Assembly: GCA_016191165.1 (NCBI GenBank)
Contig: JACPPF010000124.1
Span: 1 to 64,000, forward strand
DNA: 64,000 nt
Direction: 5' to 3'
Source of the DNA: Planctomycetota bacterium
GTDB lineage: Bacteria; Planctomycetota; Planctomycetia; Gemmatales; Gemmataceae
Both the position numbers and the translations under genes were made by a program. The notes beneath the pieces are model-generated. The model was not told the DNA's origin and ran no database searches. It saw only the letters and a list, made by a program, of their open reading frames with translations. The stretch's first letter is position 1. Every line of letters begins with the position of its first letter. Positions 54,709 through 60,648 of the stretch are shown here, one piece after another.

Positions 54709-55701
54709 TCAATCTGTTTTTGCCTGTTTCGCAATCATCCCCTGTAGCGCCCGCCAGCCGGCCAGTTGTTGCGGACTCAGGCTCGCTTCGCCGCGCGTCC
54801 TCAAGCGATGCTCCACTGCACGAAGCCAGTGGCGCAGCTTCCTCGGCAACTGCGCCCGTGCGTTCACCACCAGGCCAGTGACGCGCTGCTGCTGGTGTTT
54901 GCGCAGGATTTGCAGCTTGCCGCGGACGTGAATGCGATAGCCGAAATCCCGCACGATGCGCTTGACTTTCTGGATCGTGCCGCGAACCTTCCGCGGATGA
55001 TCCTTTGGAAAGCTAATGGTAATGTCGTCGGCATAGCGCGTGTAGGCGCCCTTGCGTTTCGCGACGAAACGCGCGATGCGCGCGTCCAGGTTGAAGTTCA
55101 CGAGATTCGACAGGCGCGGACTCGTCGGCGCTCCCTGCGGCAAGACGCCCGCATGGGTCACGAGCCGAACCAGAAGAGCCGCCGCCTGGGCGTTCCACCC
55201 GACACGCCGAAAATAGGCGTCCAGCCGTTGAGCGGTCGTGGACGGGAAAAAATCGACCAGATCCATCTTGATGACGACGCACTGGCCGACGTGTGGCAAG
55301 GCGTTGGTCACAATCGATTTGCCCTGCTCAAATCCGTGCGCCGCCGGATGGGCACGCAGTCTGCGCAACAAACGCCGGAGCACGCGGCGTTGCATCGCCT
55401 TGAGGGGTTGATCGGGGATCAGCAGACGGCGCTGGCCGCCGCGCTTCTTGGGAATGAGCGATTCGCGGTAGAAAAGCTCCACGCCTTGAAGTTCCTGCAC
55501 CGACACGCCAAGGCGAGCGGCCAGGGTGGTGAGATCCTTGCCACGGCCCAGGCGAACCCGGAGCCATTCCAGCGGGCGGGCGTTGGTGGCCCGGACCACG
55601 CGATAGGATACCCAAAGCGAGGCTACCAGTACGACGAAGCCTCCACCCAGGGCGAGGCCCCACAGTAAAACCACATTTGCGTCGGCAAAAAGAGTGTTCA
55701 T
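54709..55701 (-). CDS. Retron-type reverse transcriptase with N-terminal membrane helix
   Basis: 330 residues. RT motifs in order: RRLLIPDQPLKAMQ (RT1), HGFEQGKSI (122-130), VIKMDLVDFFPS with Asp147, PQGAPTSPRLSNLVN (RT4), YTRYADDITIS (Tyr223, Asp225, Asp226), and VTGLVVN (274-280). NALPH (133-137) matches the NAxxH hallmark of retron RTs and VTG the second hallmark. Residues 11-33 (VLLWGLALGGGFVVLVASLW) form a transmembrane helix, unusual for a retron RT. ATG 55701 precedes that helix; no clear Shine-Dalgarno. Neighbours are a redoxin-PHM gene and cysD, so no effector gene is obvious. A maturase or group II intron role is unlikely because no intron domain is present. Confidence 0.9.
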   Translation of the reverse strand: MNTLFADANVVLLWGLALGGGFVVLVASLWVSYRVVRATNARPLEWLRVRLGRGKDLTTLAARLGVSVQELQGVELFYRESLIPKKRGGQRRLLIPDQPLKAMQRRVLRRLLRRLRAHPAAHGFEQGKSIVTNALPHVGQCVVIKMDLVDFFPSTTAQRLDAYFRRVGWNAQAAALLVRLVTHAGVLPQGAPTSPRLSNLVNFNLDARIARFVAKRKGAYTRYADDITISFPKDHPRKVRGTIQKVKRIVRDFGYRIHVRGKLQILRKHQQQRVTGLVVNARAQLPRKLRHWLRAVEHRLRTRGEASLSPQQLAGWRALQGMIAKQAKTD

Positions 55702-56007
55702 GCAAAAAAAGGAGAGGCACGGTTGGCCGCGCCCCTCGCGCCTTGCCAAACATTTGAAACGCCGCAGGTGTTTCAAATGCTTGCGTGGGAGTCTCAAGAG
55801 GCCGCATCGCGACCCGGCTGACGAAACATCAGCCTTCGCTCGCAAAGAGCTTCGCCAAGGCGCTGATTGAGTATGACCGGCAATGTGTGCCCTGTCAACG
55901 ATGGGGTGAGCAATTTCGCGAATCGCGTGGTTTGAAAGCGTTGGCCGGGCCTTCTGAAAAGTTGGCGAGATCACGCTTTTCGTGCCTGTCAAGGTCCGTT
56001 GCATCCC
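55702..56007 (-). other. Upstream region of the RT, candidate msr-msd RNA
   Basis: Retron RTs are normally preceded by their template RNA on the same strand. This non-coding stretch has a 10-bp hairpin CATTTGAAAC / GTTTCAAATG (55751-55779, 9-nt loop) ending 50 nt before the start codon, and a 6-bp hairpin GGCTGA / TCAGCC (55816-55834). I could not identify a convincing a1/a2 pair or priming guanosine, so the assignment is tentative. Confidence 0.35.
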
Positions 56008-56109
56008 GGAGATACCCGCCGCGCCCCGTGAGAAGTCCCTCAAAAAAAAGACACAAGGGATTTGTTACCATGGCCTTGTATCATGGCAGGGACTTCTCAC
56101 ATGCGCCGC
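56008..56109. repeat. 73-nt structured element, copy B
   Basis: GTGAGAAGTCCCT (56028-56040) and AGGGACTTCTCAC (56088-56100) form a perfect 13-bp terminal stem enclosing an A-tract and a smaller CCATG/CATGG hairpin. Same flanks and same length as copy A at 228-300. It lies between the RT gene and cysD. Confidence 0.75.
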
Positions 56110-56280: not shown

Positions 56281-57183
56281 ATGAGGACGTTGACGCATCT
56301 GAACCGCCTGGAAGCCGAGAGCATTCACATCCTGCGCGAGGTGGTTGCCGAATGCGAAAACCCGGTGATGCTCTACTCCATCGGCAAGGACAGCGCGGTC
56401 ATGCTGCACCTGGCGATGAAGGCGTTCTACCCGTCGAAGCCGCCGTTTCCGCTGATGCACGTTGACACGACCTGGAAGTTTCGCGACATGATCGCATTTC
56501 GCGACCGGATGATGGCCGACCTTGGCTTGGACCTTCTCGTCGAAATCAATCAGGAAGGCGTCGCGGCCGGCATCAATCCTTTCACGCACGGTTCGGCCAT
56601 CCACACCGATGTCATGAAAACCCAGGCCCTGCGGCAAGCGCTCGACAGGCATCGCTTCGATGCAGCGTTTGGCGGCGGCCGGCGCGATGAGGAGAAGAGC
56701 CGGGCCAAGGAACGCATCTTTTCCTTCCGCTCCGAACAGCACCGCTGGGACCCCAAGCAGCAACGCCCCGAACTCTGGCGCCTCTACAACGCCCGCAAGC
56801 ACAAGGGCGAGAGCATCCGCGTCTTTCCGCTCTCCAACTGGACCGAGCTCGATATCTGGCAGTACATCCATCTGCAAAACATCCCGATCGTCCCGCTTTA
56901 CTATTCGAAGGAACGCCCAGTGGTGGAACGTGACGGCACATTGATCATGGTGGATGACAACCGCATGCCGCTTCGGCCTGGCGAAAAGCCGATGATGAGG
57001 AAGGTCCGCTTCCGCACGCTCGGCTGCTATCCGTTGACCGGAGCCATCGAAAGCGAGGCCGACACGTTGCCGGCGATTATTCAGGAAATGCTGCTGACCA
57101 CCACCTCGGAACGGCAAGGCCGCGTCATCGACCACGACTCGACAGCGTCGATGGAGAAGAAGAAGCAGGAGGGGTACTTCTGA
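56281..57183 (+). CDS. cysD: Sulfate adenylyltransferase subunit 2
   Basis: 300 residues. With CysN it makes adenosine phosphosulfate from ATP and sulfate. The PP-loop [44 protein letters not shown] and [17 protein letters not shown] are diagnostic. ATG 56281 fits the family start. cysNC lies 1.5 kb downstream on the same strand; the two are normally adjacent, so the RAYT and unknown gene between them look like an insertion. Confidence 0.96.
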
Positions 57184-57213: not shown

Positions 57214-57293
57214 GGGAGGGCGAGGCTCCTGCCGAGCCGCGAACCCTCGAAAAACCTGACGCACAAACGGCTCCGCTGGAGCCTCGGCCTCCC
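57214..57293. repeat. REP pair (BIME-like) upstream of the RAYT gene
   Basis: A 26-nt REP beginning GGGAGGGCGAGGCTCCTGCC (57214-57239) faces an inverted copy (57268-57293) that matches it at 23 of 26 bases. Each unit contains the small hairpin GGCTC / GAGCC. The pair ends 26 nt before the transposase start. Confidence 0.9.
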
Positions 57294-57319
57294 TATCGAA
57301 TGTATCCCTGGGTAGGACC

Positions 57320-57802
57320 ATGAACGATCAAGAAAAATCCGAAGACAAATTGGCAGGTCGAAAGCATCCCGCTCATGGCATCCTTTTCGTCGAGGGCCAA
57401 CCCACCATCATTTTCGATACCGTATGCACCAAAAATCGCTCGCCGTGGTTGGCCAATGACAATGTGCATCAACTATTGCGCAAGGTTTGGCAGGAAGCAG
57501 ACGCTTGGTGGATGGGAAAGTACATGATCATGCCCGATCACATCCATTTTTTTGCCGCCGCCACCGATTCCCCGATCTCTTTTGACAAATGGGTACAATA
57601 TTGGAAATCGCAGTTTACGAAACGCCACAACGATCCCGAACATCGCTGGCTCACGGACCATTGGGATGTCCGTATTCGTAATGAGTCCGCATATGAAGAA
57701 AAATGGGATTACGTGGCCCAGAATCCGGAGCGCGCTGGATTGGTTGCTAAACCGAAGGACTGGCCCTACCAAGGCGTTATTCATGACCTGCCCTGGAAAT
57801 GA
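57320..57802 (+). CDS. REP-associated tyrosine transposase (RAYT)
   Basis: 160 residues of the Y1/TnpA_REP family, single-strand nucleases that act on REP hairpins. The HUH motif is MPDHIHFF (His74, His76); the catalytic tyrosine is Tyr125 or Tyr131 in NESAYEEKWDYVAQNPERAG, followed by GLV and WPYQG as in the family. It is bracketed by REP copies at 57214-57293 and 57811-57900, the classic REPtron layout. It sits between cysD and cysNC, apparently without stopping their function. Host-domesticated roles are possible. Confidence 0.9.
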   Translation: MNDQEKSEDKLAGRKHPAHGILFVEGQPTIIFDTVCTKNRSPWLANDNVHQLLRKVWQEADAWWMGKYMIMPDHIHFFAAATDSPISFDKWVQYWKSQFTKRHNDPEHRWLTDHWDVRIRNESAYEEKWDYVAQNPERAGLVAKPKDWPYQGVIHDLPWK

Positions 57803-57810
57803 TCGAGACC

Positions 57811-57900
57811 GGGAGGGCGAGGCTCCTGCCGAGCCGCGAACCCGCGAGAAACCTATCGCCATTGCAAGGATCCAAGGGGGGCGAGGCGCCTGCCGAGCCG
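57811..57900. repeat. REP pair in direct orientation downstream of the RAYT gene
   Basis: A REP identical to that at 57214-57239 (57811-57836) is followed by a diverged direct copy (57875-57900). Both continue with CGCGAA. They lie 8 nt after the RAYT stop. Confidence 0.9.
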
Positions 57901-57936
57901 CGAAGCTGCAATAACCTCATACCGGTGAGACGAAAA

Positions 57937-58650
57937 ATGACGGCCGCCGAGTTTAAGGACATTTTCGAGTCAGCGGAATTCAAGACCGGCCTGGAGGAGA
58001 TCAGTTCCTACCTGGCCAGCGTTAGACAGGAGGCGGCGATCGTTCAGCTTCTGGCCAAGGTCCTTTGGCGGCAGAAGCGATTGTACGTTCTTGAAAGAAA
58101 CAAGCGTCACGACCTGACAATTTGGACCCCGTCTTCTCCCTTCGGCGACAAGGAAACCAACGTCGAGTTTAAGATTCATTTTGAATGTGACATGAAAGTC
58201 CTGGCTGACGAACTGAGCAAGAATGGGAATCGGCCTTTGAAAGAAATGTGGGATTTGGTACTCGCAAAGAAGATAAGCAAATCGTGGAGCGTGATGGCCA
58301 ATATCTACGGCGATTTTTGTGTGAAGGCACCACATATTTTTGTTTGGATAATTCATTTCCGGAACCTGCGGAATCTGCGTCCCGAAGCACGTGGGCGAGT
58401 ATGTTGGGCAAAGGAAACCATGAAATGGTTGGCCAATAATCCCAATGCGGCGACGGATCGAACTTACGTCAACGTAGCCGATGACTACCTCGCGAGACTA
58501 GGCCGTGAGCGGCCGCTAGTGGCACGGCCGCATGAAGTGGATATTTCAACCTCGGGCGATTTTCCATCGGTATATCACATTCGAGTTTGCGAATTCCCAG
58601 ACGCCTCCCAAAAAACGGCTCGGCAGGAGCCTCGCCCTCCCGGCCATTGA
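57937..58650 (+). CDS. Unknown protein, possibly nuclease-like, in the cys cluster
   Basis: 237 residues from ATG 57937; an upstream in-frame extension only reads through REP sequence. LERNKRHDLTIW followed by ETNVEFKIHF has the D...ExK spacing of PD-(D/E)xK nucleases, a weak hint. Its middle (58090-58460) is visibly richer in A and T than the neighbours, suggesting transfer. The last eleven codons and the stop come from a REP copy ([11 protein letters not shown]), so the original C-terminus has been replaced or extended. Confidence 0.55.
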   Translation: MTAAEFKDIFESAEFKTGLEEISSYLASVRQEAAIVQLLAKVLWRQKRLYVLERNKRHDLTIWTPSSPFGDKETNVEFKIHFECDMKVLADELSKNGNRPLKEMWDLVLAKKISKSWSVMANIYGDFCVKAPHIFVWIIHFRNLRNLRPEARGRVCWAKETMKWLANNPNAATDRTYVNVADDYLARLGRERPLVARPHEVDISTSGDFPSVYHIRVCEFPDASQKTARQEPRPPGH

Positions 58651-58699
58651 TTTCGCGTGACACAACAACGCAACGGCTCGGCAGGAGCCTCGCCCTCCC
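58616..58699. repeat. Two inverted REP copies before cysNC
   Basis: 58616-58641 and 58674-58699 are identical to each other and are exact reverse complements of the REPs at 57214 and 57811. The first overlaps the end of the unknown gene; the second ends 23 nt before the cysNC start. Confidence 0.92.
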
Positions 58700-58722: not shown

Positions 58723-60648
58723 ATGGCACACATCTCCGACCTCATCGCAACCGATATCGACCAGTACCTCAAGGCGCATGAGCACAAGTCGCTCCTGCGC
58801 TTCATCACCTGCGGCTCCGTCGATGACGGCAAGAGTACGCTCATCGGCCGCCTGCTCTACGATTCCAAGATGATCTTTGAGGATCAACTCGCGGCACTCG
58901 AGGCCGACTCGAAAAAAGTCGGCACCCAGGGCGGTGATCTCGATTTCGCCCTGCTGGTTGACGGCCTGGCCGCGGAACGTGAGCAGGGCATCACCATCGA
59001 TGTTGCCTATCGATTTTTCTCCACCGACAAGCGCAAGTTCATCGTCGCCGATACGCCGGGCCATGAGCAGTACACACGTAACATGGTGACCGGCGCCTCC
59101 ACCGCCTCACTCGCGGTTATCCTGATCGACGCCAACCGCGGCGTTCTCACGCAGACACGCCGGCACAGCTTCCTCGTCTCCCTGATCGGCATCAAGCATA
59201 TCGTGCTGGCCATCAACAAGATGGACATGGTCGGCTATTCCCGCGCTGTTTTTGAAACCATCCTCCATGACTACCTGGAATTCGCAAAGCAAATTGGCCT
59301 GGGGTCGATCGTCGCCATTCCGATGTCCGCGTTGCGTGGCGACAACATCACGGAGCTTTCGCCCAACACGCCCTGGTACACCGGCCCGACGCTCATGGGG
59401 CACCTCGAAACCGTGCCGATCGACGACCAGAGCCAGACCGCGCCGTTTCGCCTGCCCGTGCAGTGGGTCAATCGCCCGAACTCCGACTTCCGCGGCTTCT
59501 CCGGCATCATCACCAGCGGCGCGGTACGACCTGGCGACAGGTTGCGAGTTTTCCCGTCCGGCAAGGAGAGCCGGGTCGCGCGCATCGTGACGTTCGACGG
59601 CGATCTCGACGAGGCGGTGGCCGAGCAATCGGTGACGATCACGCTGGAAGATGAAATCGACATCAGTCGCGGCAGCATTCTCGCGCCAGCCGATTCGCCG
59701 CCGGGCGTCGCGGATCAGTTTGAAGTGACCGTCATCTGGATGGCCGAGGAACGGATGTTCCCGGGCAGGCAATACTGGATCAAGGTCGGGACCAAAATGG
59801 CGGTGGGCGCCGTCACCGCGCTCAAGCACAAGATCAACGTCAACACGCTGGAAAGGCTGGCTGCCAAGACGCTGGAATTAAACGAGATTGGCGTGGGCAA
59901 CCTGAGCCTCGATCAACCGATCGCGTTTGATCCGTATGCCGAGAATCGCGACACCGGTGGTTTTATTTTCATCGACCGCATGACCAATCGCACGGTCGGG
60001 GCGGGTCTGATCCATTTCGCCCTGCGGCGTGCCGAGAACATTCCCTGGCAAGCGCTGGAGGTCAACAAGCAAGCCCACGCCGCGATCAAGAACCAGAAGG
60101 CGTGCATCCTGTGGTTCACGGGCCTTTCCGGCGCGGGTAAATCGACGATCGCCAACCTGGTCGAGAAGCGGCTGTATTCGATGGGCCATCACACTTTTCT
60201 ACTCGACGGCGACAACGTGCGTCACGGGCTGAACCGCGATCTGGGCTTCACCGATGCTGACCGCGTGGAGAACATCCGCCGCGTCGGCGAAGTCGCCCGG
60301 CTGATGGTCGATGCGGGGTTGATCGTGCTGGTGTCGTTCATCTCCCCCTTCCGCGGGGAGCGGCGCATGGCCCGCGCCCTGGTCGAAGCAGGCGAGTTCA
60401 TCGAAGTGTACGTCAACACGCCGCTGGCGGTCGCCGAGGCCCGCGATCCGAAGGGGTTGTACAAGAAGGCCCGGCTGGGCGAGATCAAAAACTTCACGGG
60501 CATCGATTCGGATTACGAGCCGCCGGAGAATCCGGAGATCATGATCGATACGGCGCAGGTGACCCCCGAGGAGGCTGCCAACCGCATCGTTCGCTACCTT
60601 GCGGAGCGAGCCTCGATCCGCGACCTGGGGCCGGAGTTTTCAATTTAG
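58723..60648 (+). CDS. cysNC: Bifunctional sulfate adenylyltransferase subunit 1 / APS kinase
   Basis: 641 residues. The N-terminal GTPase CysN (P-loop GSVDDGKS at 31-38, [17 protein letters not shown]) drives APS formation with CysD. The C-terminal APS kinase CysC (P-loop GLSGAGKS at about 467, [45 protein letters not shown]) makes PAPS. ATG 58723 is the family start; an earlier in-frame start only adds REP-encoded residues. No clear Shine-Dalgarno, the REP lies where it would be expected a little upstream. Confidence 0.96.

Follow-up and report, generated by a model that had tools for sequence, protein, structure and literature searches.

We found that the gap between cysD and cysNC in the window (the whole stretch of 64,000 nucleotides that was analysed) probably holds a REPtron, that is, a RAYT gene with its cognate REPs and REPINs, next to a probable nuclease gene (ORF2) that is tailed by a REP. 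We put the probability of this reading at about 70%. The most likely explanation of the locus is a newly arrived REPtron, which would have entered the genome recently without having spread in it. The six 26-nt REPs which were originally reported to bracket the RAYT gene, four of them identical and in both orientations, were confirmed exactly (Table 1): three copies lie in each orientation, copies 1, 3, 5 and 6 agree at 26 of 26 positions, and copies 2 and 4 have 3 mismatches.

Table 1. Features of the locus in window positions; all REPs lie between the cysD stop at 57183 and the conserved cysNC ATG at 58723
Feature	Position	Strand	Basis
cysD, sulfate adenylyltransferase subunit 2, left host gene	56281..57183	+	TIGR02039 519 bits, NF009214 567 bits
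REP copy 1, left REPIN arm	57214..57239	+	exact 26-mer
REP copy 2, right arm of copy-1 REPIN, 3 mismatches	57268..57293	-	sequence match; pair fold; 30-nt loop
RAYT (REP-associated tyrosine transposase), 160 aa	57320..57802	+	NF047646; TnpArep 4er8
REP copy 3, followed by REPIN-loop-like sequence	57811..57836	+	exact 26-mer; loop score 14.5
REP copy 4, 3 mismatches, upstream of ORF2	57875..57900	+	sequence match
ORF2, 237 aa, probable PD-(D/E)XK nuclease	57937..58650	+	invariant residues; structure model; reads through REP copy 5
REP copy 5, within ORF2 3' end	58616..58641	-	exact 26-mer
REP copy 6, 23 nt before cysNC ATG	58674..58699	-	exact 26-mer; aligns with G397
cysNC, sulfate adenylyltransferase subunit 1 fused to APS kinase, right host gene	58723..60648	+	NF004035 1068 bits

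The assembly from which the window comes (G000; 7.2 Mb in 183 contigs, 95% complete) contains the exact 26-mer four times, always at the cysD–cysNC locus, and the reversed control not once, so the repeat is not a product of chance. When the search was relaxed to the 16-nt REP core, one further perfect core was met at C26:48548, where it lies in a degenerate repeat, and mismatched cores elsewhere in the assembly were not above the reversed control. No dispersed REP population was found in G000, the exact REP being confined to this locus. The notion that identical copies indicate recent spread is thus not supported in this genome, since the genome-wide count of the exact 26-mer comprises the local copies only; a recent arrival, or multiplication at the locus, is the better fit. 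Multiplication on the spot after arrival is possible by analogy with the REPtrons Ma and Mb of Marinomonas sp. MWYL1, whose REPs are concentrated near the RAYT genes and were read in the same manner (PMC8266576). A misbinned contig was considered and rejected: the tetranucleotide distance of the contig is 0.11-0.12 to its own bin and 0.16-0.18 to the REP-rich sister genomes G397 and G392, and since the contig resembles the rest of its bin, it is unlikely to have been binned wrongly.

The locus shares with the Marinomonas REPtrons a small HUH/Tyr RAYT and REPs concentrated beside the gene, but the Marinomonas REPs are GTAG-tagged and the host belongs to another phylum (PMC8266576). GTAG was found neither in any of the six window REPs nor at their foot, and the stem foot does not show the CGTC/GTAG tetranucleotide of canonical tagged REPs; the GGCTC/GAGCC stem is instead preceded by a G-rich head, GGGAGGGCGA. 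Among published RAYTs, classes 2.6 and 3 are known to go with REPs that lack GT[AG]G (PMC6006769). A search of the window against Rfam gave no match.

The RAYT gene is intact, and its product matches NCBIfam NF047646 with 77 bits (E 1.3e-21), which is 3 bits below the curated cut-off of 80. The nearest solved structure by sequence match is TnpArep 4er8 (E 6.6e-7), and the HUH and Tyr motifs of the two proteins are in register. The HUH motif reads DHIH (residues 73-76) and the Tyr motif YVAQNP (Y131); DHIH or DHLH and the tyrosine of YxxxNP are kept in all four RAYT homologues. Thus the protein is homologous by sequence to TnpArep 4er8 and to TnpAREP of E. coli (group 2), although the similarity is low, and its motifs exactly match none of the published subclass signatures (PMC6006769). 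Its closest relative among named genomes (82% identical) belongs to the Gemmataceae MAG isolate Baikal-deep-G160 (locus L009), alias G397, which shares its genus with G000; the homologue in G400 is 72% identical. A pN of 0.12 against a saturated pS of 0.88 indicates strong purifying selection. RAYT is present once in G000, not in the several near-identical copies per genome that mark IS200/IS605 elements, and it was not found on plasmids or viral contigs.

The RAYT would be a single-strand HUH/Tyr endonuclease which binds the REP or REPIN hairpin in lagging-strand or displaced single-stranded DNA, nicks it and rejoins it, and the window REP would presumably be cut by the window RAYT in this way. 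The REPs would then multiply near the RAYT gene and, in some relatives, throughout the genome. The gene itself may be expressed by read-through in the cys operon.

The left REP pair (57214-57293) is an inverted REP doublet with a 30-nt loop, i.e. a REPIN. It folds far better than shuffled sequences (z -6.2), and its loop resembles the loops of the sister genomes with a score that is reached by 8e-6 of window positions. REPIN-loop-like sequence also follows REP copy 3, with a score of 14.5, which a fraction of 2e-5 of the window positions attains. Neither a single REP (z about 0) nor the tandem REP pairs fold better than shuffles. Most REPs of G397, G400 and G392 form inverted pairs, with loops of 27-47 nt in the twenty pairs that were read. 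The arrangement is like that of the REPINs of Pseudomonas fluorescens SBW25, which are inverted REP doublets with a spacer that form a long hairpin; one full member lies in the window and many in the sister genomes, but the REP sequence is another one and G000 has no dispersed population (PMC3116915). Some REPINs of G392 (L132, L133, L134) have a longer loop of 47 nt, and REP pairs of G429 start about 75 nt apart; loop classes thus differ between genomes.

The abundance of the REP among relatives was surveyed with 22 nt and up to 2 mismatches in 59 genomes, and the reversed control was zero in all but one of them. G400 has 217 copies, G392 167, G397 115, G429 60 and G434 36; lower counts were obtained for G408 (15), G442 (13), G395 and G000 (6 each), and two or fewer for the remaining relatives. 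Strong RAYT matches are restricted to G000, G397 and G400 (3/59), all of which are REP-positive. The co-occurrence is significant (Fisher p 0.009 for the 59 relatives and p 0.004 for 392 genomes of the phylum, in tests which ignore genome relatedness). The REPtron layout of the original prediction is supported: a RAYT with HUH and Tyr motifs, flanking REPs of a REPIN-forming family and a significant association of the two. The dependence of the REPs on this RAYT clade is answered less uniformly, since the clade is rare and always REP-positive, whereas G392 carries its 167 REPs with no RAYT of the clade detected. G429, G434 and G408 are likewise REP-rich without a close RAYT, G429 having a distant one only. 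Possibly the RAYT was lost from such genomes or falls into assembly gaps. REPtrons are also on record in species without the corresponding REP family (PMC3733652).

One might argue from G392, G434 and G408 that the REPs belong to some other mobiliser and that the window RAYT merely landed among them. However, REPs of one family lie on both sides of the RAYT in the window, G397, G400 and G071, that is, at all three close RAYTs of the family and at a more distant one, and in 4/4 cases the nearest REP or close variant is in minus orientation upstream and in plus orientation downstream. We therefore regard another mobiliser as very improbable. REPtrons have been little studied in Planctomycetota, and the REP described here lacks the usual GTAG tag. 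A single family spans a RAYT with local REPs, a RAYT with more than 100 dispersed REPs, 167 REPs with no detected RAYT, and genomes with neither, so the order of arrival, spread and loss can be tested by comparison and assay, and the locus offers a natural before-and-after case for REP spread.

The history of the locus can be approached through its composition and divergence. RAYT and ORF2 have a GC content of 0.50, compared to 0.605 +/- 0.033 for the window, and fall within the lowest 0.6% of 480-nt windows; their GC3 is 0.57-0.59 versus 0.81 in the cys genes. The homologues in the REP-rich sister are low in GC as well, so composition alone gives no date for the arrival. Divergence between G000 and G397 at four-fold sites is 0.71 for RAYT, 0.42 for cysD and 0.46 for cysNC. 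Taken together, the foreign composition, the higher silent divergence of RAYT and its purifying selection favour separate acquisition over vertical descent at the cysD–cysNC locus. This bears on the view that the locus is a relic, in which an ancestor with a vertically inherited RAYT had REPs all over its genome, and the REPs decayed except here, where selection or conversion kept them. G397, of the same genus, carries REPs genome-wide, one of them as far upstream of cysNC as in the window, and the degenerate copy at C26:48548 persists in G000. However, the four exact window copies equal the family consensus, part-decayed copies are almost absent elsewhere (two-mismatch matches are no more numerous than in the control), the silent divergence of RAYT surpasses that of the cys genes, and G393, G394 and G396, which belong to the genus and are likewise REP-poor, have no RAYT. 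Thus a relic is unlikely.

The second gene of the interval, ORF2, was overlooked in the original prediction. Comparison with Pfam, NCBIfam, PADLOC and PDB sequences gave nothing significant and assigned it to no known family, and it was not found on plasmids, in phages or in viral contigs. Five copies occur in 4/95 genomes of the family (one each in G000, G429 and G467, two in G397), and they share invariant residues E21, D59 and E77-F-K79, in which D59 with E77xK79 follows the D...(D/E)xK active-site arrangement as a sequence pattern only. A structure model built from the five sequences (pLDDT 78, pTM 0.80) retrieved SwaI first in VIA (Z 7.0), with HincII and EcoRV near Z 5 amid unrelated folds of similar score, and in Foldseek the list was dominated by EcoRV chains, though no E-value was significant (best E 0.23). 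ORF2 resembles the type II enzymes SwaI, HincII and EcoRV in the D...ExK arrangement and, by the model, may do so in fold, but it shares no detectable sequence similarity with them and the structural match (Z 7.0) is weak. We consider it likely that ORF2 is a SwaI/EcoRV-like PD-(D/E)XK nuclease, as the residue pattern and the model suggest. A model made from three sequences reached a pLDDT of 66, too low for its structural matches to mean anything. No methyltransferase gene lies between cysD and cysNC. The neighbours of ORF2 in G429 are a weak GIY-YIG match, a fragment of a type I restriction subunit and an integrase.

The original prediction also proposed that the REPs might supply stop codons and leaders for neighbouring genes; what is seen is an altered C-terminus of ORF2. 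In the three ORF2 copies of the genus a minus REP follows directly on the conserved C-terminal motif, and the reading frame crosses this REP to a stop just beyond, while at the REP-free copies of G429 and G467 the protein ends 4-5 residues past this motif. The REPs have thus taken the place of the native C-terminal tail of ORF2. Since ORF2 and cysNC begin downstream of the REPs, at conserved starts (57937 and 58723, respectively; MAHISDL of cysNC is conserved among relatives), a role in leader peptides was rejected.

ORF2 lies between plus and minus REPs, and it could be the loop of an oversized REPIN, a cargo carried by the RAYT. The order plus REP, ORF2, minus REP beside a RAYT is seen twice, at unrelated sites and with swapped gene order, in the window and in G397, where one copy (L009) lies directly upstream of the RAYT. 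Sequence resembling a REPIN loop follows the plus REPs; the resemblance is clear at 57811, weak at 57875 and weak in L009. Additionally, the divergence of the two genes differs: ORF2 of G000 is only 44% identical to either G397 copy, as compared to 82% for RAYT and 88% for CysD. However, only two such loci exist, 3/5 ORF2 copies have no RAYT neighbour, 2/5 have no REP on the short contigs available, excision products and empty sites have not been observed, and the REPtrons described in the literature are not believed to be mobile as a unit (PMC6006769). A gene-bearing REPIN is therefore doubtful, and slightly more so is the broader proposal of a mobile Gemmataceae module of RAYT and REP-bracketed nuclease genes, an oversized REPIN with a restriction-like nuclease as cargo; if true, such cargo might serve in defence or addiction. 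Next to the G397 RAYT, the ORF2 homologue has a frame shift within six consecutive G close to its N-terminus (L009 4320-4400), which could reflect a sequencing error, a defective gene or a displaced start.

The remaining question is whether the REPs serve the host operon, as mRNA hairpins or processing sites kept between the cys genes. REPs are present at every junction from cysD to cysNC, the four genes share one direction, and the interval yielded no promoter-like site. However, in several relatives the junction is free of REPs or occupied by other genes, and the folding of the tandem pairs does not exceed that of shuffles, so we find a regulatory use quite improbable. The G397 REP lies 23 nt before the cysNC start, as does window copy 6, and the two genomes align ungapped from 58668 into cysNC. 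Target-site duplications or an exact empty site could not be defined at the locus, because the intergenic spacers are not alignable. The gap is free of inserts in G392, G407 and G410, and Uma2-like ORFs occupy it in other relatives; the junction thus took up different genes in different relatives.

Several minor observations concern the same region. The gap of G397 (L071 2840-3538, minus strand) holds a Uma2-family putative endonuclease gene (PF05685, 57 bits) together with the other ORF2 copy of this genome and without a RAYT, and that of G395 (L072) holds an ORF similar to this Uma2 gene; different nuclease-like genes recur at the junction. A 117-aa ORF in the G414 gap (L074) has, by eye only, the look of a four-helix bundle of the 23S rRNA intervening-sequence type. 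On the other side of cysD, and divergent from it, the window carries an adjoining reverse transcriptase gene (54709-56043, minus strand), whose best PADLOC matches are retron reverse transcriptases (RT_XIII, 251 bits; Pfam RVT_1, 67 bits). Just upstream of this gene a long hairpin (about 56025-56100, minus strand; z -3.8 for a 151-nt stretch) is a candidate retron non-coding RNA.
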